A stretch of DNA of 38,425 bases from a virus, in IMG/VR virus record IMGVR_UViG_3300024264_000082, positions 1-38,425 of that record. One strand, written 5' to 3'. Position numbers and translations under genes: made by a program. Below the pieces are notes generated by a model. That model was not told the DNA's origin. It saw only the letters and a program-made list of their open reading frames with translations, and made no database searches. Positions within the stretch are counted from its first letter, which is position 1, and each line of letters opens with the position of its first letter. This document shows, piece after piece, positions 322 through 22,877 of the stretch.

Positions 322-1596
322 ATGAAGATCTTTACTAATTTCAATGAATTTATAACTGAGAGTGTATTTACTAATACAACTGAGTCCCTTATTTTAGAAG
401 GTGGAGCAGCGGGCCATATGTCACATCCATTTGATGAAAAAGATTTAACATTCGGTGACTTTAAAAAAATTGTTGAAGCTGGTCTTCAAGGAGAATTAAA
501 CTTTGAAGAAGTTGCAACTGAAAAAACAGATGGCCAAAATCTTCTTGCAACTGTAAAGGATGGAGTGGCAATGTTTTCAAGAAACAAGGGTCAATTAATT
601 AGCCCAGTAGATTTACAAGGAATTATTAAAATGTTCACAGACCACGCTTCTAAATTAGTAGAAGAAACATATATTTTTGCTGCAACTGATTTAGCAGATG
701 CTCTACCAAAAATTAAAGATCAGTCTGTGTTTAATAATGGTAAGGATTTCGTAAATATAGAATTAATCTATTCTAAAAATCCAAATGTAATTTATTACGA
801 AAGAGATGTTCTTCAATTCCATGACATTCAAGAAACTGATGGTAACGGTAATATAACAGGCAGTAGAAAAATTGCAGGAGAATTAGTTAAAGCTTTAAAA
901 GAAGTAGATGCTGATGTTCAAAAAACATTTACAATAATCCCGCCTCAGGTTTTAAAACTGGGTAAAGATCTTAATTTTGAAGAAAATAAAAATAAATTCA
1001 TCAAAAAGATCGAAGCACTGAGAGATCGTTATGGTTTATTAGATGCTGATTCGGTTTCAAGATATCACGAAATGTGGTGGAGAGAAACTATAGATAGAAA
1101 CTTTCCAGATACAGAACAAGATTATAAAGAAGGTTTATTATTAAGATGGGCTTATGGTGATAAGAAGACTTTAAACATGAGATCTTTAGATAAATCGTTA
1201 GGTAAAGATAAAGCATCTCTTATTAAGAAATTTGATAAAGAAGATGTTAAAAAGAAATATAAAGAAAACATTAGACCGTTTGAAGATTTATTCTTAGAAC
1301 TAGGATCTATAATTCTTAAAAATGCTTCTAATTTTGTAGCAGCAAATCCAGACAAGGAAATGCAAAGATTACATAATCAAATAAGAACAGAAGCTGAAGC
1401 TATTATAAAAACAGGAGGTGAAGCTCAAATTGCAAAAGTAGAAGCTGAACTTGCCAGATTAGATAGAATTGGAGGAATAGAATCTATTATACCAACTGAA
1501 GGAATAGTTTTTGTGTACAAAGGAAAAACAATGAAATTAACAGGTACATTTGCAGCCATTAATCAATTAATGGGTATCATAAAATACGGAAGATAA
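322..1596 (+). CDS. RNA/DNA ligase-like nucleotidyltransferase with N-terminal capsid-targeting peptide
   Basis: This 424-residue protein has the covalent nucleotidyltransferase signature. Motif I is KTDGQN with the nucleophile candidate at Lys68. A motif III-like NIELI has its Glu near 147. A motif IV-like EGLLLR lies at 270-275, followed by lysines near 281-291 where motif V would fall. Such enzymes form a lysine-AMP or GMP intermediate and join or cap nucleic acid ends. Residues 1-14 (MKIFTNFNEFITES) match the peptide on several neighbouring proteins and resemble the T4 capsid targeting sequence, with ITE as a plausible gp21-type cleavage site. It overlaps the next gene, a second ligase-like enzyme, by one base (TAATG). 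The substrate cannot be told from sequence. The enzyme class is fairly secure and packaging is inference. Confidence 0.7.
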   Translation: MKIFTNFNEFITESVFTNTTESLILEGGAAGHMSHPFDEKDLTFGDFKKIVEAGLQGELNFEEVATEKTDGQNLLATVKDGVAMFSRNKGQLISPVDLQGIIKMFTDHASKLVEETYIFAATDLADALPKIKDQSVFNNGKDFVNIELIYSKNPNVIYYERDVLQFHDIQETDGNGNITGSRKIAGELVKALKEVDADVQKTFTIIPPQVLKLGKDLNFEENKNKFIKKIEALRDRYGLLDADSVSRYHEMWWRETIDRNFPDTEQDYKEGLLLRWAYGDKKTLNMRSLDKSLGKDKASLIKKFDKEDVKKKYKENIRPFEDLFLELGSIILKNASNFVAANPDKEMQRLHNQIRTEAEAIIKTGGEAQIAKVEAELARLDRIGGIESIIPTEGIVFVYKGKTMKLTGTFAAINQLMGIIKYGR

Positions 1597-3443
1597 TGGC
1601 ATTACAAAATTTAAGAAAATATTTTCAATCAACTAACATTAATGACTTTAATTCAATGTTGAAATTAACATGTGTTGTATCTGAAAAAATACAAGCATCT
1701 TCGTTTCATGTTAAAAGTACTAGTACCGGTTATGAATATTTTAAAAGCGGTTCTAAACATAAAATGGATAAAGTAGATAGAACTATGGTAAGATACTATG
1801 AAAATGGTATTAATTACTTTAAGGCTATTCCTAAAGATGTAAAAGAAGATATGCCACATGATTGGAAATTCGGATTTGACTACATGATAGACAACAAAAC
1901 AGTAGATATCGAATACGAAAGTCTTCCTAAAAACCATCTAATACTAACACACATACAAATATTAAATCCTAAAAACCCTACACAAATTAAAAAAGTTATT
2001 AGAGATCCACAGATCTTAAATAAGTGGGCAGAATTATTAGGGGTACAAAAACCACCTGTTATATTTCAAGGAGTTTTACAATCAAATCAAAAAGATGACT
2101 TAATTAGATTACTAGAACTTTCTGATTCTGATTTTAAAATCAAATTCAAAGATCAATCTTTTACAAGAGCCATATTTAATATATTCAACATAGGTCTTAA
2201 TAATCCAACTTTAAATTCTAATTTAGATAATGACATAGACGGTTTAATAGTAAACTTCTATGAAGGTAAAAATCCAAAAAGTTTTAAACTTGAAAGATTT
2301 GACAGAAAGGATATTCAAAAAAGAGAGCCATCTGACATGTATCAGATCGCTATATTAGATTTAGTAGAGTATATTACAGAGTTTAATCTTGAAGAAATTT
2401 CTTTAGAATCAGAAGATTCAGCAGAAAGATATATTGAATTAATTTCACACATCTTCAATGCATACATTGAAAAGAATGCTTCTAAATATGTAGGAGCTAG
2501 CTTTAATTCTGCAGATTTTTCAGAAAACAAAGGTTTTAAATTAAATCCAGCATTTATCACAAATGAAAAAACACTATCATTAATACAAAATGAAGTTTTA
2601 TCAGAATTGTATAAAATAGCTTTAGGTAGTTTTAGAAAAAAGAGAAACAAAGAAACAGATATTATTAATAAAGATTTAATGTCACAGATCAATGAAATAG
2701 TTGATAGTATAGATGCAATAGTAATGGCAAAAACAAATGAAAATGATGTTCTTAATTTTAAATCATATTTGTTAAATCAAAAATTGCAATATAATGAATC
2801 TCCTGTTTTAGAAGCGTTAAAGGTAGATTATCCAGAACACGGTAAGAAATTAGTAAATATGTTTGTTGGTAGATTCCAGCCCTTTACATTGGGTCATGCT
2901 AAAGTAGTTGAAACTATTCATAAGCAAAATGGCCACCCGGTTGTAATCTTATTAGTAAAAGCCAAGAACAAGAAAAAAGAAGATGCATTTAAGAGACCTT
3001 ATGATGAGGAAACTCAAGTTGAAATGATCAATAGATTAAAATCTAAATATCCAATTGAAGAAGTTTTCGTAATTCCAACAGGTGGTATTGACACTATGTT
3101 TAATGCAATGAGGCCAAAATATGAACCAGTATTATGGGGAACCGGAAGCGATAGAATGAAAACTTATGGATTTCAAGTAGATAAACCAGAATATAGAGAA
3201 GATCTTGGTGTTAGAACTGATTTTGGACTTTATGAAATACCAAGAACTGGTAAGAATATATCAGCAACACAAGTAAGAAACGCAATGCTAGATGGCGATG
3301 AGAAGCTATTTAAGAAGCTAACACCTAAGCCAGTACATGATATGTATAATGAATTAAAATCTAAACTGGAAGATTCTATGGGGGTTTTAGAAGAGGCTGA
3401 AACAGCAACATTAACATTCGATCAATTTATCAAGAATATATAA
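1596..3443 (+). CDS. Ligase-like domain fused to NMN adenylyltransferase-like domain
   Basis: This 615-residue protein has two parts. The N-terminal ~250 residues look like a nucleotidyltransferase (RNA ligase) fold. EKIQASSFHVK near residue 30 sits where motif I should be, but KIQA replaces KxDG. DGLIVNF at 215-221 fits motif IV and FKLER at 230-234 fits motif V. The C-terminal domain from ~422 has GRFQPFTLGH (425-434) and ISATQVR (555-561), the nucleotide-binding signatures of archaeal-type NMN adenylyltransferases, with Thr for the first His. That domain transfers AMP to a mononucleotide such as NMN to make NAD. The C-terminus ends TFDQFIKNI, which resembles the neighbouring targeting peptides. 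It is probably co-translated with the upstream ligase-like gene, suggesting joint nucleic-acid end or NAD chemistry. The true substrate is unknown. Confidence 0.7.
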   Translation: MALQNLRKYFQSTNINDFNSMLKLTCVVSEKIQASSFHVKSTSTGYEYFKSGSKHKMDKVDRTMVRYYENGINYFKAIPKDVKEDMPHDWKFGFDYMIDNKTVDIEYESLPKNHLILTHIQILNPKNPTQIKKVIRDPQILNKWAELLGVQKPPVIFQGVLQSNQKDDLIRLLELSDSDFKIKFKDQSFTRAIFNIFNIGLNNPTLNSNLDNDIDGLIVNFYEGKNPKSFKLERFDRKDIQKREPSDMYQIAILDLVEYITEFNLEEISLESEDSAERYIELISHIFNAYIEKNASKYVGASFNSADFSENKGFKLNPAFITNEKTLSLIQNEVLSELYKIALGSFRKKRNKETDIINKDLMSQINEIVDSIDAIVMAKTNENDVLNFKSYLLNQKLQYNESPVLEALKVDYPEHGKKLVNMFVGRFQPFTLGHAKVVETIHKQNGHPVVILLVKAKNKKKEDAFKRPYDEETQVEMINRLKSKYPIEEVFVIPTGGIDTMFNAMRPKYEPVLWGTGSDRMKTYGFQVDKPEYREDLGVRTDFGLYEIPRTGKNISATQVRNAMLDGDEKLFKKLTPKPVHDMYNELKSKLEDSMGVLEEAETATLTFDQFIKNI

Positions 3444-8320: not shown

Positions 8321-8629
8321 ATGTCTAAAAAGAAAACAAATATCCTATCTGAAGCTAACGAAATAGTAAACAATCGCTCAGAAGAAAAATCACGTCAATA
8401 TGGACCATTCGAAGAAGGTATGCGAAGAGCAGCTATGATTTTCAATGGCATGACAGGTAAAGAACTAAACGGCTCAGATATGTATGCTGCACTCGTGGCA
8501 CTTAAACTAAGTCGACACTCTTATAACTATAAACAAGACAATCTATTAGATGCAGTTGCATATTTAGGTGCACTAGATAACTATGTTGAAAAGCACGGTT
8601 ATAAAGACAATGAAGATCCAATAAAATAA
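8321..8629 (+). CDS. DUF6378-like phage protein
   Basis: This 102-residue helical protein has the layout of the phage DUF6378 family: an ILSEANEIVNNRSEEKSRQY opening, then MRRAAMIFNGMTGKELNGSD, then a LVALKLSR segment and the end NLLDAVAYLGALDNY. These proteins are common in phages and their function is unknown. They resemble MazG-type all-alpha pyrophosphohydrolases in overall pattern, but a complete metal-binding E-x-x-E set is not visible here. It is followed three bases later by the SGNH-like gene and shares its promoter. Confidence 0.55.
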   Translation: MSKKKTNILSEANEIVNNRSEEKSRQYGPFEEGMRRAAMIFNGMTGKELNGSDMYAALVALKLSRHSYNYKQDNLLDAVAYLGALDNYVEKHGYKDNEDPIK

Positions 8630-8632
8630 ATT

Positions 8633-9694
8633 ATGGCAGAACTAACATTTTTTACAGAAAAGGAAACCGACAAATCGATTAGGGTAGGTATATGTGCCCT
8701 AGTTGGTAAGATTAGCCCTAAAATCTCATCACATAAAGGCGCATGGGCTCATATGCTATGTAATCAATTACAAAATGCAGGGTATTCTAATGCCGAAGTA
8801 ATCACATCTAATCAAACCGATTGGAACGACTATGATGCAATTCTCATTGATCACGGTATGGAATTTAAAGGCACGTTTAATATTTTTGGAGGCTCTAACG
8901 ATGATTTATATCATCAACTTATGAGGTTATTTTCCCCCGTTAAAAAATATTCCCTACATCATGATATGCCAGATATTGGTAATCTGATTCAAACTAGGCT
9001 TAAAGCAGGAACTGATTTATTTAAAACACTTGAAACTAGAATTGAAGAAGCAACAGAATTGTGTACGAATATACAAAGAGTAGATCATGTAGATAAAACA
9101 GAAAAACTATGTTTTGGCGATAGTCACTCTTTTGGAATGTATCAAGCTGGTTATATGTGTCAGCGACATGATGGACTAACAATGCACGGCGCACTAAAAA
9201 GAGGTTTACAAAGTTATGTATATCCTTGGATTAAAAGCTTAACAGTTTATATGGGTAATATTGACGTGAGACATCATTTGATGAGACAATCTAATCCATC
9301 TGATTCTGTAAAAACATTACTAAAAAGATATGAAGAAGAGCTTATCGGTTTAGGTATTAGTGATATTGAAATAGTAAATGTGTTACCTATTGAAAACGAA
9401 AGTAGACCATTACCAAAAACAGGCTATTATAAAGGAACGCCATTTGCTGGAACATGGTCAGAACGCAATGCTCTTGTGAATCAAATCAATTTAGGTATTG
9501 ATGATATGGCTAAAAGAAATAACTGGAAAGTTTATAAACACCCGGAAGTTTATTTTAATGCAAAAGAAGAATTAACATTCGATGTTATGGAAAAGCCTAA
9601 ATCTGTTCATATTTCTAGAGAGTATTACAGATGGAATATGGAAACAAATCAACCAAATAAAAATTTAATTAAACAAACACTATCCTTATTTTAA
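8633..9694 (+). CDS. SGNH-hydrolase-like protein with extra N-terminal domain
   Basis: This 353-residue protein has CFGDSHSFGM near residues 160-169, the block I signature of SGNH/GDSL hydrolases with nucleophile candidate Ser164. An MGNIDVRHHL segment near 207 fits the block with the oxyanion-hole Asn. Towards the C-terminus a KPKSVHISREY segment could supply the catalytic His. The first ~150 residues are a separate domain (VGICALVGKISPKISSHKGA, then a DAILIDHG segment). Such enzymes hydrolyse esters, often on sugars or lipids. It precedes a putative DNA-modification cluster, so a role in removing or adding a group on a nucleotide or surface sugar is possible but only inferred. Confidence 0.5.
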   Translation: MAELTFFTEKETDKSIRVGICALVGKISPKISSHKGAWAHMLCNQLQNAGYSNAEVITSNQTDWNDYDAILIDHGMEFKGTFNIFGGSNDDLYHQLMRLFSPVKKYSLHHDMPDIGNLIQTRLKAGTDLFKTLETRIEEATELCTNIQRVDHVDKTEKLCFGDSHSFGMYQAGYMCQRHDGLTMHGALKRGLQSYVYPWIKSLTVYMGNIDVRHHLMRQSNPSDSVKTLLKRYEEELIGLGISDIEIVNVLPIENESRPLPKTGYYKGTPFAGTWSERNALVNQINLGIDDMAKRNNWKVYKHPEVYFNAKEELTFDVMEKPKSVHISREYYRWNMETNQPNKNLIKQTLSLF

Positions 9695-9697
9695 TAT

Positions 9698-9853
9698 ATG
9701 AAAAAATATAAAATTAAAATCACACCATATCACACAGTAGGTGCATGGTACGTTTTAGAATTAGAAACAGAAAATCTTGAGTGGTCCATGGAACAATACC
9801 AAAGAAATAGAGATCCTTTTGAATGGGAAATATTAGAAGAAAATGCAGATTAA
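9698..9853 (+). CDS. Small hypothetical protein (51 residues)
   Basis: ATG at 9698, three bases after the previous stop, opens a frame of 51 codons beginning MKKYKIKITPYHTVGAWYVL and ending EWEILEENAD. It is acidic and rich in Trp and Tyr. The stop overlaps the next start within ATGCAGATTAA, an 11-base coupling also found between uvsX and its neighbour. Frame, spacing and composition agree with the surrounding genes, so I take it as real. No family was recognised. Confidence 0.6.
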   Translation: MKKYKIKITPYHTVGAWYVLELETENLEWSMEQYQRNRDPFEWEILEENAD

Positions 9854-11057
9854 AACCACAAAATATTATGATGAATTCATCAGATATTATAACTTAGCTT
9901 TAAAGCAACAAGAACTTTCTAATTTAGGAATGGTTCCTCATGTTGAAAGCGGCATGAATGACCCATTAATGGAACACATTGAATTATATGATGTTGTAGA
10001 AAGAAAATATGCAGGTTTTAGTCAAATAGTAAATGATTGCTTTTATGGATGGACAGATAAACATCCATACTGGGAGCACATGCAAGCAGGTAAAATTTAC
10101 CCTCAAAGAGAAGAGGTTGCAAAAAATTGGACTAGCCGACAGGATGTTTTTGGATTAGAAGAATGGCTTTATATTTTTATTTTACATAGAGTATGTGGCT
10201 CTGCAATTAATTACGCAACTAAGCCATCGGGTTATCATAACACAATCTTATTTGATTTATATGACTGCGATACTATTGAAGATATGTGTGAAAAGGTAAA
10301 ATATCATCCAACACCATTTTATACTTCAGTAGGATATCAATTTCCGGCTTTTCCAAAACCACCTAAACCAAATGTTAACGAAGATTCATTCGTAGGCATG
10401 TCTAATTTTACTGAACCAGAATATGTGTATAAAAGAGGCGGAGATTATTTCTTATGTGAATTTGCACCAAGAATGGCCAGAGATATGGCAAACTTCTTAA
10501 GAACAGATGGTAAAAAAGATTTAAGAGAATTAGGTGAATGGATGTTTAAGTGGAATGCCGACAATGGCTTAAGAGCTTATAGATTCCAGTATGCTGCAGT
10601 TATTGCAGATGTATGTGACTGGTATCCAGAATTTATGAATAGAGAATCGATGTTCTATTATGGCACTAACGCAGTAGAATGTATTGGTTATCTTGCAGAT
10701 CCTGTAGAAAAGAAGGGTAAGAAGTCTGAAGAGTTTTTAGATGCAGTAATGACAAAGATTTATGAAGATACAGGATCACTTCCATATAATGCAGAAGATG
10801 TAGCATGTGACTTTATTAGATGGATAGAAAACTATTTAAAACCAGGACCTGATTATGCGCATATAGATATGGATACTTTATGGAATTCATCTGTAATTAC
10901 AGACCATCCATATGGTAGACAAAAAGCTATGTTAGATCTAGGTTTAGTAAAAACATTTAATGATATGACTCAATTTCCATCCGATGACAAAGTTTTACAA
11001 AGCGCAGGAGTATCAGTTGAAGAGTATAAAAAAATGAATGAAGATTATGGAAACTGA
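9843..11057 (+). CDS. Putative amino acid:DNA transferase-like protein (paralogue 1)
   Basis: This 404-residue, mostly helical protein contains a segment LEEWLYIFILHRVCGSAINY (~105-124), then PSGYHNTILFDLYD. Later come APRMARDMANFL, RAYRFQYAAVIADVCDWYPE, ESMFYYGTNAVECIGYLADP and LPYNAEDVACDFIRWIENYL. This pattern recalls the phage AADT (formerly aGPT-PPlase) family, which replaces an activated 5-hydroxymethyluracil in DNA with an amino acid or amine. The assignment is from memory of family patterns and is not certain. The next gene is a diverged copy: MARDMANFL aligns with AAKDMAHIL and ESMFYYGTN with ESILFGGTG. A PLP enzyme lies two genes further on, as in known thymidine hypermodification clusters. 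Confidence 0.45.
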   Translation: MQIKTTKYYDEFIRYYNLALKQQELSNLGMVPHVESGMNDPLMEHIELYDVVERKYAGFSQIVNDCFYGWTDKHPYWEHMQAGKIYPQREEVAKNWTSRQDVFGLEEWLYIFILHRVCGSAINYATKPSGYHNTILFDLYDCDTIEDMCEKVKYHPTPFYTSVGYQFPAFPKPPKPNVNEDSFVGMSNFTEPEYVYKRGGDYFLCEFAPRMARDMANFLRTDGKKDLRELGEWMFKWNADNGLRAYRFQYAAVIADVCDWYPEFMNRESMFYYGTNAVECIGYLADPVEKKGKKSEEFLDAVMTKIYEDTGSLPYNAEDVACDFIRWIENYLKPGPDYAHIDMDTLWNSSVITDHPYGRQKAMLDLGLVKTFNDMTQFPSDDKVLQSAGVSVEEYKKMNEDYGN

Positions 11058-11088
11058 TATTAAAGAAAGAAAAAAAGAAAACAAAAAT

Positions 11089-12144
11089 ATGAGTGTACTA
11101 TTTACATTTGACGATGATCCACATTACGATCATGAAAACATAACGTATAGTGGAACAAACACAGATATTAAATTTAAAAAGAAAAAACCAGCTGAGAGTT
11201 GGATGAAAGATTGGACTGAAGAAGAAAGATTGGCTAAGTTCTTTGAATTTTGTACTGCGTTTGATAAAAGAGAAGATCAATTACTTTTAGAAGATTATCA
11301 AATATTTTCTCATAGATTACACTGGCATGAACACCCATATTGTTATATGATGCAACATGAAACTGATCTAGAAAAATTACTTTATTATACAATAGTCTTC
11401 TCATTTTCTAACGAACATTGGGGAACTATAACCAGATTAATAAAAGAAGGAGAAGAAAAAACTAGAGAACATTTTGTAGAAAATAGACATGCTAGAAATG
11501 ATTTATTTCAAATCTATTATCCCAAAGGTACAAAAGTTAAAGATTGGTTAATTGAAGGACCTAAGAAAGCGGCAAAAGATATGGCGCATATTCTTAAAGA
11601 TCTCGAAAGACCTTATACAATGATGGAGTTTGCTAAACTATTAGAAGCTTATTTTAAAGAACATCAAGGATTTAGATCACCCTTATATCCATGTAAAAAC
11701 ACAGCAAGATATGTTGCAATGAGTAGGCCAGATCTTGTTGATCCCGAATCTATTTTATTTGGTGGAACTGGACACTTTGATGGTATGCAACAAATATTTG
11801 GAGGAGTTAACTTAAATGGTAAAGTAAAATATTCAATAGATGATAATGGTCAGTTTGTCGCAGAAAACAAACATGCCGAAGAATGGATTAGACAAATGGA
11901 TTTATTAGTAAATCATCCAAATAATCCAATGGAAAGTCAAAAGTATTTAAACGTAGAAGATAAAACATGTTTCTTCTATAAGCATATTGCAATTAGTCAT
12001 GGGATAAAATCACCAACAAAAAGAATTCCATATACATGGATATTTGACGGAGATTTTAATTTAGCTAAACACCCTACTAAAGAAATTTTAGTTAATGCTA
12101 ATACGACAAAATATTTATGGGGTAGAGAATATCCAAACGAGTAA
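11089..12144 (+). CDS. Putative amino acid:DNA transferase-like protein (paralogue 2)
   Basis: This 351-residue protein starts at 11089. Earlier in-frame ATGs at 11038 and 11047 overlap the preceding gene and would add a low-complexity METDIKERKKENKN. The A-rich DNA there looks like a translation leader, so I prefer 11089. It shares the order of conserved segments with the preceding gene: a hydrophobic LLYYTIVFSFSNEHWG, then PKKAAKDMAHILKD, GFRSPLYPCKNTARYVAM, and ESILFGGTGHFDGMQQIF. A tandem duplication followed by strong divergence is the simplest reading. The function is inferred as for its paralogue. It may be a second transferase or a non-catalytic partner. Confidence 0.45.
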   Translation: MSVLFTFDDDPHYDHENITYSGTNTDIKFKKKKPAESWMKDWTEEERLAKFFEFCTAFDKREDQLLLEDYQIFSHRLHWHEHPYCYMMQHETDLEKLLYYTIVFSFSNEHWGTITRLIKEGEEKTREHFVENRHARNDLFQIYYPKGTKVKDWLIEGPKKAAKDMAHILKDLERPYTMMEFAKLLEAYFKEHQGFRSPLYPCKNTARYVAMSRPDLVDPESILFGGTGHFDGMQQIFGGVNLNGKVKYSIDDNGQFVAENKHAEEWIRQMDLLVNHPNNPMESQKYLNVEDKTCFFYKHIAISHGIKSPTKRIPYTWIFDGDFNLAKHPTKEILVNANTTKYLWGREYPNE

Positions 12145-12148
12145 AATA

Positions 12149-12817
12149 ATGAAGATGAAAAATAAGGCAGAAGACGCATGGCAAATACTTAGAATTCAAG
12201 GTGAATTCACTAAAGGATTTGACACATTTAATCAATTGGAAGGATCATATGTATCGGTTTTTGGAAGTGCAAGAACATTGAGTACTAATAAAATTTATAA
12301 AGAAGCAGAAAAACTAGGTAAACTCTTAGTAGAAGCTGGATTTGGTGTTATTACTGGTGGAGGTCCTGGAATTATGGAAGCTGCTAATAAAGGAGCGCAT
12401 AATGCCGGAGGACAATCGATTGGAGTTGGTATTGAATTACCGTTCGAAGCAAGCATGAATGAATATGTAGATTTAGGAGTAGAGAATAGATATTTCTTTA
12501 CTCGCAAGGTAATGTTCCTCAAATACTCACAGGCATTTGTGATATTTCCAGGCGGCGTCGGCACTTTAGATGAGTTATTTGAGGCCATTACTCTTGCGCA
12601 ATGTGGTCATAACGTAAAATATCCAATAGTTCTTGTTGGTAAAAAATACTGGGAAGGATTAATTGATTGGATGCAAAATACATTATGGGAACACGGAGCA
12701 ATAAGTCAAAAAGACTTTGATCTATTTAGAGTTGTCGATACCGCAGAAGAAGCCGTAGAAAAAATTACAGATTATCATAACAAATATAAAGATAATAATT
12801 CAAAAACAAACTTTTAA
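12149..12817 (+). CDS. LOG-family (TIGR00730) Rossmann protein
   Basis: This is a 222-residue protein, with the start at 12149 placed just after the previous stop. It has the two family signatures: GGGPGIMEAANKGA at about 70-83, and PGGVGTLDELFE near 134-145 with a FFTRK before it. LOG proteins cleave the N-glycosidic bond of nucleoside 5'-monophosphates, releasing base and ribose 5-phosphate; cytokinin monophosphates are the known plant and bacterial substrates. In a phage, between putative DNA-modifying proteins and a PLP enzyme, it may act on a modified or unwanted nucleotide, which is inference. The family call is secure. Confidence 0.8.
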   Translation: MKMKNKAEDAWQILRIQGEFTKGFDTFNQLEGSYVSVFGSARTLSTNKIYKEAEKLGKLLVEAGFGVITGGGPGIMEAANKGAHNAGGQSIGVGIELPFEASMNEYVDLGVENRYFFTRKVMFLKYSQAFVIFPGGVGTLDELFEAITLAQCGHNVKYPIVLVGKKYWEGLIDWMQNTLWEHGAISQKDFDLFRVVDTAEEAVEKITDYHNKYKDNNSKTNF

Positions 12818-12819
12818 AT

Positions 12820-13716
12820 ATGGCTCACGATAAACACACGACAAGTACGATGAATCAAGATTTAAATCTTATGATGCCAAATAGACAAGCATGGTTAGAT
12901 TTAGCAGGAGATTGGCAAGATCCATTAGATGATCCAATTATTATGAATCATGAAGGATTTAATGTAGTGAGAGATGATATGATGGGCTTTGGATCTAAAT
13001 GTAGATTTGGAGATATATTAGTACAAAAGGCTCCAACAGATACTTTGGTATACGTACAGCCCAGATTTGGTTTTGCAGGAATATCTCTTGCATATTTAGC
13101 CAAAAAATATAATAAGAAACTGGTATTATTTATGCCATCAGGCAAAGTAATATCAGATCATCAAGCCATATGTATTGAGAGAGGAGCAATACCTAAATTT
13201 AGAAGAATTGCAGCAATGCCTAATTTAAATAGAATTGCAAAACAATGGGCAGAAGATAACAATGCTACATTTATTCCTTTAGGTTTAAAACATGAATTGG
13301 TAACCGCTGCTGCAGTAAAAGTTGCATATGATGTAGCAGAAAAACATGGATATCCAGAAGAAGTATGGTCAGCAATATCAACTGGAGTTTTACAACGCTC
13401 TTTACAAATTGCATGGCCAGATGCTAAATTTAATGCAGTTGCAGTTTCTAGAAATATTCAAAATGGTGAATTAGGTAGAGCTAAAGTTTGGTCTCATCCT
13501 AAGGCATTTGCATCAGATGTAAAACCAGAATTTGCTCCCCCATTCCCATCAGCAATGAACTATGATGCAAAAGCTTGGGAATTTATGGTAAAACATGGAA
13601 ATCCAGGAGCATGGTTTTGGAATGTAGGCGGACAACCTTACCCAGATTCAGAAGAAACTAAAGAAAAAACTAATTCCCAGAGGGAGTGGGGAGAAGTTTT
13701 AGAAATGGATCAATAA
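12820..13716 (+). CDS. PLP-dependent enzyme, tryptophan synthase beta/ACC deaminase fold
   Basis: This 298-residue protein resembles fold-type II PLP enzymes. VVRDDMMGFGSKCRFGD (49-65) matches the R-x-D...G-S-K-x-R block in which the lysine (Lys60 here) binds pyridoxal phosphate in ACC deaminases and cysteine desulfhydrases. FGFAGISLAYLAKKYNKKLV follows, as expected for the next helix-strand unit. STGVLQRSLQ could form the phosphate-binding loop. Such enzymes do beta-elimination, beta-replacement or deamination of amino acids. In phages with hypermodified thymidine, PLP enzymes trim or rearrange the amino acid attached to the base. That role here is inferred from its neighbours. It ends just before the dUTPase promoter. 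Confidence 0.6.
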   Translation: MAHDKHTTSTMNQDLNLMMPNRQAWLDLAGDWQDPLDDPIIMNHEGFNVVRDDMMGFGSKCRFGDILVQKAPTDTLVYVQPRFGFAGISLAYLAKKYNKKLVLFMPSGKVISDHQAICIERGAIPKFRRIAAMPNLNRIAKQWAEDNNATFIPLGLKHELVTAAAVKVAYDVAEKHGYPEEVWSAISTGVLQRSLQIAWPDAKFNAVAVSRNIQNGELGRAKVWSHPKAFASDVKPEFAPPFPSAMNYDAKAWEFMVKHGNPGAWFWNVGGQPYPDSEETKEKTNSQREWGEVLEMDQ

Positions 13717-13770: not shown

Positions 13771-14238
13771 ATGGCAAACATAGACAACGAATGTAAAGAT
13801 CTAGAAGTAAACGATTTTTACAACAAATCAACAACACACCTAGAAGATATAATGTCTAATCAAAAGAAAATGCAAGAGGAAACATACGGCATTAATTTCG
13901 ATGATATGACAATTAGAGAGATTATGGATTTCTGGCATGTTAACACACACTCACTAATGGATGAAGTTCATGAAATGACAGATGCTCTTGGTGGAATTAA
14001 AGATGGTAGTGGAAACGCAGTATGGAAATACTGGAAAAAAGACTTTACTAAATATAATACATTAAAAATTTCTGATATGTCTGAAGGAGATAAGAAAGAA
14101 TTGTATATGGAATGGGTAGATATTCTACACTTCTTTATTAATTATGCATCTTCAATCGGTTTAGACGCTAAGACTGCATATAATTACTACTTCGCAAAAG
14201 CAGAAGAGAACGTTAACCGTCAGAAAAATAATTATTAA
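13771..14238 (+). CDS. dUTP diphosphatase, all-alpha (dimeric dUTPase/MazG-like)
   Basis: This 155-residue helical protein has the metal-binding pattern of dimeric dUTPases: E65-x-x-E68 in DEVHEMTD, K89/K90 near WKYWKKD, then E114-x-x-D117 in MEWVDILHFFINYA. It ends YNYYFAKAEENVNRQ, as is typical for the family. It converts dUTP to dUMP and pyrophosphate, keeping uracil out of DNA and supplying dUMP for thymidylate or modified thymidylate synthesis. It overlaps the polymerase N-half by one base (TAATG), so the two are probably translationally coupled. Confidence 0.75.
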   Translation: MANIDNECKDLEVNDFYNKSTTHLEDIMSNQKKMQEETYGINFDDMTIREIMDFWHVNTHSLMDEVHEMTDALGGIKDGSGNAVWKYWKKDFTKYNTLKISDMSEGDKKELYMEWVDILHFFINYASSIGLDAKTAYNYYFAKAEENVNRQKNNY

Positions 14239-15641
14239 TGCTATTAGATATAGAACAAACCAGTAATGAGTTAATTATATCTTACTATAATAAAGAAGGT
14301 AAAGTCTCATTCAAAAGATATGGTGTAAATCAATTTCAGAATTGGGTAGTCACTAAAGAAACAGACAAATACAAAGACAAAACATATAGAAACTGGGACG
14401 ATCGTCCACTTAAAAGAGGTATTGCTAAATCATTTAATAAATTTAGTTTACTTTATTTTATGGATTCTTTACCAGAAGCTGATAAAGAAGAGATATATGA
14501 GTTTAATATGCCAAGAACATACTTTGTCGATATTGAAACAGAAATAGTAGACGGCTTTCCAAAACCAGAAGAAGCTAAAAGTAGAATCCTATCATTTTCC
14601 ATTATCACACCCGAGCGTAAAGCAATCGTATTAGGTTTAGAAGATATGCCACATGATAAAGTGAAAAAGATCAATGATGATACTAATGAATACTTAAAAA
14701 ATTACGATCAAGACTGGGAATTCTCATATCATAAGTTTGATAATGAGTATAATATGTTATATACATTCCTTCATAAGTTTTTACCTAAATTCCCAATGAT
14801 GACAGGATGGAACTTTATAAACTATGACTGGCAGTATATAGTAAATAGATGTAAAAGATTACAAATCGACCTGAACGATGTGGCTATTACTGGATCACTT
14901 GATAGAAATGATAGCAGACCACTTCACATGGGCATTCTTGATTATATGCAATTATATGATAAATATGATCGTTCAGTTGCAGTAAAAGAATCAAACTCAT
15001 TAGATTTTGTTTCAGGCGCAGTATTAGATATTAATAAAATTAAATATAGTGGATCATTACAAGATTTATATGAAAATGATTTTACTAAATATATTTATTA
15101 CAATGTAATCGATTCATGTTTAGTATACTATATTGATCAACAATTAAGATCGATGGAAGTTCTTTTAACATTGGCAACTATTACCAGAATGCCTCTCTAT
15201 AAAGCTTCTTCACCTGTGGCTATTACAGAATCTTTGTTGGCAAGAAAATTAGCTGAAACTAATAAGAAAATAGGTGTAGAATATGGAAAGGCAGATTCTC
15301 TTAAAGAAGGTAAATTTGAAGGTGCATTTGTAAAGCAACCAATTGTTGGGTATTATTCTGGAGTAAGTGCATTTGATTTCGCTTCGCTATATCCATCAAT
15401 AATGAGACAATTTAATATTTCACCAGAATCTTTTATTGAACAGGTAACTGAACCTGAAATTAATGAAAGAAGAAAAGATGAGAATGTAATTGTTTGTGAG
15501 AACGGCGTTGTCTATAAAAAGGAAGATTCAATCTTAAAAAAGATTTTAAGTGATTTATATTCCCAAAGAAAAAATTACAAAAAGACGTCATATGCGTATT
15601 ATGAGAAGGCATATGAACTAGAAAAAAAAATAAAAAAATAA
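14238..15641 (+). CDS. 43: DNA polymerase gp43, N-terminal half (exonuclease and start of palm)
   Basis: This 467-residue protein is the front half of a family B polymerase. The proofreading exonuclease is complete: DIE (Asp98, Glu100) for Exo I, MTGWNFINYDWQYI for Exo II, and YYNVIDSCLVY near 295 for Exo III. Motif A, DFASLYPSIMRQFNIS, lies near 380. It stops in the fingers, just after QRKNYKKTSYAYYEKAYELE, within an A-rich tract. Motifs B and C are missing; they are in the gene at 19296. The three frames after the stop close quickly, so a frameshift cannot join anything here. The two chains (467 + 402 residues) add up to about the 898 of T4 gp43, so they probably assemble into one enzyme. 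Confidence 0.9.
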   Translation: MLLDIEQTSNELIISYYNKEGKVSFKRYGVNQFQNWVVTKETDKYKDKTYRNWDDRPLKRGIAKSFNKFSLLYFMDSLPEADKEEIYEFNMPRTYFVDIETEIVDGFPKPEEAKSRILSFSIITPERKAIVLGLEDMPHDKVKKINDDTNEYLKNYDQDWEFSYHKFDNEYNMLYTFLHKFLPKFPMMTGWNFINYDWQYIVNRCKRLQIDLNDVAITGSLDRNDSRPLHMGILDYMQLYDKYDRSVAVKESNSLDFVSGAVLDINKIKYSGSLQDLYENDFTKYIYYNVIDSCLVYYIDQQLRSMEVLLTLATITRMPLYKASSPVAITESLLARKLAETNKKIGVEYGKADSLKEGKFEGAFVKQPIVGYYSGVSAFDFASLYPSIMRQFNISPESFIEQVTEPEINERRKDENVIVCENGVVYKKEDSILKKILSDLYSQRKNYKKTSYAYYEKAYELEKKIKK

Positions 15642-19295: not shown

Positions 19296-20504
19296 ATGAC
19301 AATAGAAGAGTTAGAACAAAAATCAATTGAACAACTTACAGATGATGAGGCAAAGCTGCTTGTAGACCACTACAAGCAGCTGTCTGCCAAATTCACAGCA
19401 TATGAGCAAGCTGTTAAGTTAACTCTTAACTCTATTTATGGAGCATTTGGTAATAAGTGGTTCCACTTTTTTAATCTTGACATTGCTGAATCAATTACTA
19501 AACAAGGTAAGAATGCAATTCTTTATTCCGAAACAATTCTTAACAAATACGTTAATGATTTTTGGCACAAAGATACTGCAGTACATGATAAATTCAACAT
19601 CAAAGTAAAAGGTAAAATTGAAAAACCTGCAGTAATTTATATTGATACCGATTCATGTTATGTACAGTTTCAAGATTTATATGAATCTATAATTTGGCCA
19701 GACGAAGATAAAAAATTACCAATTGATGAATTTATTTTAGCGTTTTATGCATTTAGATTAAAAGATTACATATCTAAAACCATGGAAAAATACGCAGAGA
19801 AAAGAAACACAAATAATTTCTTATTCTTTGAATTAGAATCATTAGCGTATAATGGTATTTGGATGTCTAAGAAAAAGTATATCCAGAATATTGCATGGGA
19901 TGATAAACTAGAAGTAACTGAACGCCATCCTTCATTAAAAAAGGTAAAAACTATTGGATTTGATACAATTCAGTCTTCGACTCCTAAATTTGCCAGAGAA
20001 AAATTAGTAGAATGCCTTAGAATTTTATTTACATCAGAAATACAACCAACAGCAACTGAATTACAACAACTAGTTGAGTTTATGAAGCAATGTAAGAAAG
20101 AATTTAAATTAGCAGACATTGACGATATATCGTTTAATAAAAGAACTAATAATATTGACAAATATATCATCGATGATCAAGAAGAATTACAAATAGGTTT
20201 AAAGTGTCCAGCTAATGTAAAAGCTGCAGGATATTACAATTATATTTTAAATAACAATAAAAAATATAAAAATAAATATAAACTTATTGCTAATGGTGAA
20301 AAACTTAAAATATACAACTGTATAGGAACTATCAGTGAAGTATATGCTTTTATGCCAAATGAACATCCTTATGAAATAGCACCTAAAGTAGATTACGATA
20401 CTCAATTTGAGAAGGCAATGATTGATCCTCTGAATAGAGTACTCACGGCAATAGGTTTACAAACACTAGATACTAATCTAATATATGCTTCGGCATTATT
20501 TTAA
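19296..20504 (+). CDS. 43: DNA polymerase gp43, C-terminal half (fingers, palm, thumb)
   Basis: This 402-residue protein is the back half of the family B polymerase begun at 14238. Motif B is KLTLNSIYGAFGN (41-53). Motif C is YIDTDS (115-120) with the catalytic aspartates at 117 and 119. The KKKYIQNIAWDDK segment is the KKxY motif. The thumb follows, and the end YASALF may hold a clamp-binding tail. Residues 1-35 (MTIEELEQKSIEQLTDDEAK onwards) are helical and replace part of the fingers between motifs A and B. The start at 19296 comes three bases after the clamp stop. Clamp and polymerase half are thus made together. Confidence 0.9.
   Translation: MTIEELEQKSIEQLTDDEAKLLVDHYKQLSAKFTAYEQAVKLTLNSIYGAFGNKWFHFFNLDIAESITKQGKNAILYSETILNKYVNDFWHKDTAVHDKFNIKVKGKIEKPAVIYIDTDSCYVQFQDLYESIIWPDEDKKLPIDEFILAFYAFRLKDYISKTMEKYAEKRNTNNFLFFELESLAYNGIWMSKKKYIQNIAWDDKLEVTERHPSLKKVKTIGFDTIQSSTPKFAREKLVECLRILFTSEIQPTATELQQLVEFMKQCKKEFKLADIDDISFNKRTNNIDKYIIDDQEELQIGLKCPANVKAAGYYNYILNNNKKYKNKYKLIANGEKLKIYNCIGTISEVYAFMPNEHPYEIAPKVDYDTQFEKAMIDPLNRVLTAIGLQTLDTNLIYASALF
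19354..19381 (+). repeat. Perfect 12-bp hairpin inside the polymerase C-half
   Basis: AGCTGCTTGTAG (19354-19365), loop ACCA, CTACAAGCAGCT (19370-19381). It is GC-richer than its surroundings and lies about 20 codons after the start of the polymerase C-half, within the new N-terminal extension. It is not followed by T and lies in frame, so it is not a terminator. Confidence 0.85.
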
Positions 20505-22016: not shown

Positions 22017-22305
22017 TGAGGATAAGTTGCCTATAAAATACGTATTAGGTATTGAAAAGGACTTACCAAATTATCCAAGTGCATTTGATATATTATTAGC
22101 TGAAATTAAATTATGTGTCAGAATGCCCGACAGACATAGGGGTAACTTTACTTTACATGCTTTAAAAACATATAGGTTTCCAGAAACAGAAGAAAATCAT
22201 TTATTAAAATCTATTAATGAGTTAATGGAATTGGATTTGGTAGAAGAATTAAATACCTCAGAAGGTAAAGAATCTTGGAAAATCAAAACTAATCCATTCG
22301 AATGA
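22006..22305 (+). CDS. Small hypothetical protein, possibly winged-helix-like
   Basis: This 99-residue protein has a helical first half (SAFDILLAEIKLCVRMPDRH), then YRFPETEENHLLKSINELME and LDLVEELNTSEGKESWKIKT. The last segment resembles the recognition helix and beta-wing of a winged helix. The fold is a guess and no family was recognised. It overlaps uvsX by 11 bases and the next gene by 4, so the three are translationally coupled. It is likely to assist replication or recombination. Confidence 0.65.
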   Translation: MQINEDKLPIKYVLGIEKDLPNYPSAFDILLAEIKLCVRMPDRHRGNFTLHALKTYRFPETEENHLLKSINELMELDLVEELNTSEGKESWKIKTNPFE

Positions 22306-22877
22306 TAGTAGTAATAGATAATTTCATTAAAGACCAAGATTTGTTAAGAGATATATCAAATGATATAAATTTCTTTTCAGATCCTGGTGTTTATTACTGG
22401 TGGGACGGTTGGTGGAACGGTGAAGCTAAGTCACTAAAACACAGATTAATAGAACATATTTGGGCAGATAATTGCCCACTTAGTGAAGCTATAGCAATTA
22501 GAGGTTTTGAATATTGGACAGGTATTCAAACGGCAGATCCAAATATGGGATTTGAAAATAATTTAGGAGGTCATTTCGATAAAGACGAAGAACTTTTTGA
22601 ATTAACAGGAAAAATAGTAACGCCTTCAATGGGAACTGTATATTATCCAGAACAATCAGAGTTTGAAGGTGGTATGTTAGAAATTTACAGTGAAGGTGAA
22701 GATAAGGAACCAGAGGTAGTGTATGCTAAACCAAATAGATTAGTAATTTTTGATGCAGGTAAATATGTGCATTCAGTTAGACCAGTAACTAAAGGCACTA
22801 GAAAGGCCATCGCTATTAATTTATGGTTAACATTACCATTAGGGAAACAAAATAACAATATGTCCATAGAAGGATAA
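22302..22877 (+). CDS. 2-oxoglutarate/Fe(II)-dependent oxygenase
   Basis: This 191-residue protein has the double-stranded beta-helix iron site HxD (His91, Asp93 in GGHFDKDE) and a distal His157 in GKYVHSVRPV. Arg167 or Lys168 follows as the 2-oxoglutarate contact in TKGTRKAIAINLWL. The GTVYYPEQSEFEGGMLEIY strand block is typical of prolyl-hydroxylase-like members. Such enzymes hydroxylate proteins, nucleotides or small molecules. The target is unknown. It sits between uvsX and the helicase gene, with a 4-base overlap (ATGA), inside the replication operon. That leaves open a role on DNA, on nucleotides or on a host factor. Confidence 0.75.
   Translation: MIVVIDNFIKDQDLLRDISNDINFFSDPGVYYWWDGWWNGEAKSLKHRLIEHIWADNCPLSEAIAIRGFEYWTGIQTADPNMGFENNLGGHFDKDEELFELTGKIVTPSMGTVYYPEQSEFEGGMLEIYSEGEDKEPEVVYAKPNRLVIFDAGKYVHSVRPVTKGTRKAIAINLWLTLPLGKQNNNMSIEG

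Follow-up and report, generated by a model that had tools for sequence, protein, structure and literature searches.

A gene cassette of aquatic T4-like phages that most likely decorates 5-hydroxymethylcytosine in phage DNA

We analyzed a virus record of 38,425 bases (IMG/VR IMGVR_UViG_3300024264_000082, hereafter the window) and propose that a cassette of tandem genes in it very probably decorates the DNA of the phage itself, and that it does so after replication and most likely on 5-hydroxymethylcytosine (hmC), a reading to which we give a probability of a little under 60%. The window carries T4-like replication genes (DNA polymerase B in two pieces, NrdA/B, UvsX, a DnaB-like helicase and SbcC/D) and is a portion of a T4-like phage. 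An earlier inspection of the letters by themselves (the sequence-only reading) had suggested a DNA base hypermodification cluster here, and that idea was strengthened by the similarity of predicted folds, the homology of one cassette enzyme to an enzyme of phage M6, the conservation of the cassette and its linkage to a nucleotide-modifying enzyme. Its choice of 5-hydroxymethyluracil (hmU) and thymidine chemistry was not sustained: the evidence favors cytosine over thymine, and the product may be a modified DNA letter that has not been described.

The cassette and its conservation

The four open reading frames (ORFs) named in the sequence-only reading were confirmed; they lie in tandem on the + strand and encode 404, 368, 240 and 298 amino acids. 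The first two, which that reading likened to amino acid:DNA transferases (AADTs), are here called ADT1 and ADT2; the others encode a LOG-family protein and a pyridoxal phosphate (PLP) enzyme. A further cassette gene, for an SGNH-like protein, was absent from the reading. The genes are as follows.

8633..9694, + strand: SGNH/GDSL-like protein, 353 amino acids, core cassette member (GDSH and GNID[IV]R-H conservation; linkage to ADT1)
9843..11057, + strand: ADT1, predicted AADT-superfamily-like helical protein, 404 amino acids (AlphaFold model and BFVD neighbors)
11038..12144, + strand: ADT2, second predicted AADT-superfamily-like helical protein, 368 amino acids (AlphaFold model and BFVD neighbors)
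12095..12817, + strand: LOG-type nucleotide phosphoribohydrolase, 240 amino acids, optional (TIGR00730, Lysine_decarbox)
12820..13716, + strand: fold-II PLP enzyme, 298 amino acids, core cassette member (phrog_7093; hhalign against the M6 PLP enzyme)
13771..14238, + strand: T4 gp56-like dCTPase-dUTPase (phmmer with T4 gp56; phrog_173/18650)

The cassette is common to hundreds of aquatic bacterial viruses. Six of eight scans contributed to a set of 317 IMG/VR loci with ADT1 and/or ADT2 (long relative contigs are numbered G001, G002 and so on, relative loci L). Because ADT1 homologs occur in 306 loci and ADT2 homologs in 279 with a conserved gene order, at identities that reach down to about 60% and 46%, respectively, we regard both as real genes. 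The window has the order that we call type A, SGNH-ADT1-ADT2-(LOG)-PLP-gp56, and the cassette of G001 is very close to it (PLP enzyme 96% and SGNH-like protein 95% identical). Type B comprises the orders ADT1-ADT2-PLP-SGNH and ADT1-ADT2-SGNH-PLP, while other recurring loci have SGNH-ADT1-PLP without ADT2, or ADT1-ADT2 alone; one subgroup (L324, L135, L355) has an extra gene of about 160 amino acids between ADT1 and ADT2. The SGNH gene is linked to ADT1 in most of the 317 loci, and all 17 long ADT1-bearing contigs have both PLP and SGNH genes, sometimes tens of kb from ADT1. A scan of metagenome-assembled GTDB genome contigs added four cassette copies, each with PLP and SGNH genes and two with a dCMP-type hydroxymethylase upstream.

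The PLP enzyme and the SGNH-like protein

The identification of the last of the four ORFs as a fold-II PLP enzyme was borne out by its match to phrog_7093 (E = 4e-39), the match to PALP being under the cut-off (E = 1.7e-4). As judged by hhalign (probability 96.4, E = 1.2e-9 over 201 columns), it is homologous to the PLP enzyme encoded directly after the transferase of M6. The motif G-[ALST]-K around the putative Schiff-base lysine is found in all 205 homologs, and YD[AG]K in 200 of them. Relatives also occur outside the cassette: in Erythrobacter phage ZS04 (L240:2326-4764) one is part of a fusion, with ParB-like and DNA-methylase segments on either side, and in Microcystis phage Mae-JY30 (L241:7995-8705) another is a separate gene adjoining ParB-like and methylase genes, which suggests another PLP-linked DNA modification.

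The SGNH-like protein conserves GDSH in 241 of 241 homologs and GNID[IV]R-H in 238, as well as a late His. Its best match to PF00657 is sub-threshold (E = 0.0097), the canonical GxND and DxxH blocks not being clearly present. The N-terminal part (window 8633-9000) weakly resembles T4 beta-glucosyltransferase (in one member, PF09198 E = 0.0024; by hhalign, P = 6.6e-4); since the match is weak and only local, we set aside the idea of a glucosyltransferase-like N-terminus.

Homologs of the SGNH-like protein that are 30-37% identical occur in Aeromonas T4-like phages. In 44RR, UP87 and AS4 the homolog, annotated as hypothetical (L242:7968-10355, L458:3432-5849 and L459:3423-5840, respectively), is fused to a domain of about 450 amino acids that matched HMUDK_hel in all three, at E about 7e-4 and under the curated cut-off; in the 44RR genome this domain is the sole HMUDK_hel match. 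ADT1, ADT2 and the PLP enzyme gave no tblastn match in the 44RR-type phages. In Aeromonas phage 25 (L243:5764-9035) the SGNH gene follows genes that by eye resemble those of a UDP-galactopyranose mutase and a glycosyltransferase, a neighborhood that hints at a sugar-based hmC modification there.

Predicted folds of ADT1 and ADT2

What suggests a relation of ADT1 and ADT2 to the AADTs is their predicted fold. Both AlphaFold models are confident, with predicted local distance difference test (pLDDT) scores of 87.9 for ADT1 and 82.7 for ADT2, in which the first 29 or so residues are of low confidence. In Foldseek searches of BFVD the best match of each model was its own ortholog, carrying the UniProt name "Amino acid:DNA transferase domain-containing". 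Further neighbors of ADT1 included an ADT2 ortholog, the 5-hydroxymethyldeoxyuridine (5-hmdU) kinase of SP10 and a PhiW-14 HMUDK_hel protein, as well as an endonuclease III; those of ADT2 included an ADT1 ortholog, HMUDK_hel proteins of phiRSL1 and PhiW-14, aGPT-Pplase1 and the SP10 kinase. Uncharacterized phage proteins were among the neighbors of both. The sequence-only reading had taken the two for diverged tandem paralogs: they are in tandem, and the predicted folds support paralogy, which sequence comparison does not (BLASTP E = 0.04; hhalign P = 0.02).

Searches of other collections were negative. We found no significant match to ADT1 in a Foldseek search of PDB structures, no relevant match in PDB sequence searches and no tblastn match to ADT1 or ADT2 among 50,697 phage records. 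The top TM-scores for ADT1 in the PDB search belonged to 8-oxoguanine glycosylases, at E about 3, and were not used as evidence. Over 25 records, the AADT family PF18724 gave a single sub-threshold match (E = 0.12) in a distant ADT2 ortholog; it is in frame and covers the region that we aligned by eye with M6.

Which base does the cassette act on?

To our knowledge, AADT-like proteins have so far been known only on hmU; their chemistry and that of the PLP enzymes in M6 and ViI was reportedly the subject of work by Iyer in 2013 and Lee in 2018. The outline in which a kinase acts before the transferase has been confirmed (PMC6449724). Is the cassette, then, another thymidine system? The homologs of thymidylate synthase (TS) found with it suggest otherwise. 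A search of 15 long contigs revealed, besides the ordinary thyA, a diverged TS homolog, which in G005, G012 and G013 is immediately upstream of ADT1. Aligned with T4 gp42, this homolog has Asp at the equivalent of Asn177 of the Escherichia coli enzyme, whereas the ViI enzyme and canonical ThyA have Asn, as does the M6 homolog (a tblastn match). Among TS-like ORFs of cassette loci, 57 of 58 are of the Asp177 type and the one Asn case is an ordinary thyA. Mutational evidence summarized in PMC8670742 indicates that the change from Asn to Asp at this position turns the substrate preference from dUMP to dCMP, and the paper also shows Asp177 to be a marker of phage contigs whose cytosine is modified.

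Linkage of this enzyme to the cassette is well supported in type B. Of 28 distinct loci with enough upstream sequence, 27 (20 of 21 clusters) have a gp42-like gene no more than 2 kb upstream of ADT1; because loci of the same type have a common ancestry, these should not be read as 28 independent events. The type-B proteins, at 52-63% identity to T4 gp42, fall in one cluster with that enzyme (98/95). In G009 and G011, where the PLP gene is far from the SGNH gene, it is 2-3 kb from an Asp-type TS homolog of another subgroup. Type-A long contigs with a hydroxymethylase are G001, whose gp42-like gene is divided between two frames, G002, G007 and G025.

Several observations weigh against a cassette acting on hmC. 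We found no hydroxymethylase in the window, nor in the type-A contigs G003, G004, G006, G008, G015 and G021, whose completeness is not known; in type-A loci the enzyme is rarely encoded near ADT1 (within 2 kb in 1 of 63), and gp42 may be carried by a T4-like phage for unrelated reasons. It is because of this patchy occurrence, and the lack of the enzyme in the window, that we put the probability no higher than stated above. As G003 and G006 also lack the thyA and Clp genes that flank the gp42-like gene in G001, the block may be outside these contigs or truly absent. No activating kinase was found for the cassette; an APS (adenylylsulfate)-kinase-like gene was considered for the role and rejected, being present at only nine loci and absent from the window. 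As to the ADTs, non-ortholog BFVD matches are weak (E about 0.008-0.5, TM about 0.35-0.5), and those of high probability are few, mainly from the AADT/HMUDK_hel superfamily. None of 16 ADT1 and 46 ADT2 members passed the curated cut-off of PF18724, which M6 and ViI do, and both an hhalign comparison with known AADTs and a rank test among 477 ORFs failed. The hhalign failure says little either way, since the transferases of M6 and ViI, both in PF18724, also fail against each other. With the E-values of the non-self matches so modest, we take the models to support, in part, kinship with the AADT/HMUDK_hel proteins at the level of fold, and not membership of the family; the AADT resemblance claimed in the sequence-only reading is thus partly supported by predicted structure and fails in profile searches.

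Of the other explanations, the one that fares best is that another base is modified, or that cytosine is modified by way of a methyltransferase and an oxygenase or a 5-hydroxy-dCMP synthase, the gp42-like genes of type A being incidental. In its favor, a hydroxymethylase is often undetectable in type-A contigs, and RB69-type TS homologs yield 5-hydroxy-dCMP (PMC13390438), but the type-B enzymes, which group with T4 gp42, share only 22-24% identity with the RB69 enzyme, and the 2-oxoglutarate (2OG) oxygenase of the window is a generic 2OG-FeII_Oxy_3 protein (no search was made for a methyltransferase or for Tet/JBP families). We consider this alternative unlikely, at about one third the weight of hmC. 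More improbable still is that the cassette acts on hmU in an M6/ViI-like thymidine hypermodification, the genes for hydroxymethylase and kinase lying elsewhere. The homology of the PLP enzyme to that of M6 and the origin of the ADT fold neighbors in hmU phages are what speak for it. Yet of the two enzymes that the sequence-only reading had suggested looking for, a 5-hmdU kinase and a dUMP hydroxymethylase, the kinase did not turn up: its domain PF18723 occurred in none of the 15 cassette contigs in a search that was strongly positive in M6 and ViI; no Asn-type hydroxymethylase is linked to the cassette; and several cassette contigs have a canonical thyA or thyX. Least probable is a module of metabolism or host takeover whose substrates are small molecules or nucleotides (through PLP amino-acid chemistry, LOG and pyrophosphatase), for although LOG and gp56 act on nucleotides and the ADTs fail AADT membership by sequence, the ADT fold neighbors are mainly DNA-base-modification proteins, the SGNH-like protein is fused to an HMUDK_hel-like domain in 44RR-type phages and the linkage to a dCMP hydroxymethylase is constant in type-B loci.

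A proposed pathway

If hmC in DNA is the substrate, we envisage the following steps. The phage's gp42-type enzyme is predicted from homology to make 5-hydroxymethyl-dCMP, while the gp56-like enzyme would drain dCTP, so that hydroxymethyl-dC would be incorporated in place of C. ADT1 and ADT2 may next bind the modified base in a flipped-out state and join an amino acid, or a nucleophile like it, to the 5-methylene carbon of the base, after which the PLP enzyme could trim or rearrange the attached group and the SGNH-like protein could put on or take off an acyl group or another group of ester type. In loci that have LOG, its probable role is to cleave an unwanted nucleotide. The likely benefit would be escape from host nucleases. 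The fuller proposal, that AADT-like proteins with a PLP enzyme and an SGNH-like protein, and without the usual kinase, make an amino-acid-derived hypermodified cytosine that is widespread in aquatic phages, is one that we advance tentatively, at somewhat less than even odds.

LOG, gp56 and other genes of the window

The LOG protein is a sound member of its family, as first proposed (TIGR00730 166 bits against a cut-off of 96.35; Lysine_decarbox 124.7 bits; GGGPG and PGGxGT motifs visible), with scores under the substrate-specific equivalog cut-offs, and its true start, to judge by its homologs, is probably at about 12149, directly after the ADT2 stop. Its supposed importance to the combination did not survive: because LOG is optional (in about 42 of 317 loci) and in G001 an 89%-identical copy has moved from the cassette to adjoin thyA, we reject it as an essential step. 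In that region of G001 (C1:7774-14811) a cysteine-synthase-like PLP gene, Clp genes and the split gp42-like gene are nearby. The adjacent dUTPase is present; it is a homolog of the T4 gp56 dCTPase-dUTPase (phmmer E = 6.5e-17), and in many type-A loci its gene immediately follows the PLP gene. As gp56 is also found in T4-like phages without gene 42 (PMC2993671), it is not by itself diagnostic of an hmC system.

The 2OG oxygenase that the sequence-only reading had placed near the cluster exists (22302-22877), 8.6 kb from the cassette and adjoining uvsX/dnaB genes; because it is sited among replication genes, we do not count it in the pathway. Directly upstream of the SGNH gene (8321..8629, + strand) is a gene for a small DUF6378 protein (PF19905 E = 8e-12) that is 99% identical to its G001 homolog and is linked to the cassette by association only. 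Further upstream, a 615-residue protein (1596-3443) has a C-terminal cytidylyltransferase-like domain (PF01467, E = 1.9e-9). The two DNA polymerase B genes (14238-15641 and 19296-20504) are separated by ribonucleotide reductase genes and one ORF of 247 amino acids.

Comparison with known systems

Should the proposal be correct, hypermodification of the amino-acid type extends beyond thymidine, and an undescribed modified cytosine is present in a large group of aquatic T4-like phages that are uncultured. A function would also be predicted for two conserved families with no match to Pfam in this analysis, and the cassette enzymes might become tools for labeling hmC.

The system most like the cassette is the thymidine hypermodification of M6, ViI, PhiW-14 and SP10 (5-HMUDK, AADT and PLP enzyme). 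Both have AADT-like helical transferases beside a fold-II PLP enzyme; the cassette's PLP enzyme is homologous to that of M6, and the ADT fold neighbors are proteins of PhiW-14 and SP10. The cassette differs in having no detected 5-hmdU kinase domain, in its dCMP-type (Asp) TS homolog, in its SGNH-like protein and in its two ADT paralogs, which are under Pfam detection. With the T4 hmC system (gp42, gp56 and the agt/bgt glucosyltransferases) it shares the gp42-like gene of many cassette genomes, the gp56-like gene of the window and a T4-like backbone; we found no T4 alpha- or beta-glucosyltransferase in G001, G003, G006 or the examined part of G005, and the ADT/PLP/SGNH cassette would stand in for it.

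For a decoration of hmC other than a sugar, encoded together with an Asp177 TS homolog, there is a precedent in the 5-hydroxymethylcytosine carbamoyltransferase found by MetaGPA, whose system also encodes a dCMP deaminase and an NTP pyrophosphohydrolase (PMC8670742); its transferase is unrelated to the ADTs, and we found no mention of a PLP enzyme or AADT-like proteins in PMC8670742. The Aeromonas phages 44RR, 31 and 25 have gene 42 and no glucosyltransferases, and whether their hmC is modified further was unknown to Petrov et al. (2010; PMC2993671). The SGNH-like homolog of 44RR, the fusion protein ORF233c (phrog_17781), would, if the proposal is correct, provide a candidate for the decoration of hmC in these phages, should there be one; 44RR lacks matches to ADT1, ADT2 and the PLP enzyme. 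What is new relative to all these systems is most likely the coupling, in T4-like phages, of an AADT/PLP-type pathway to hydroxymethylcytosine.

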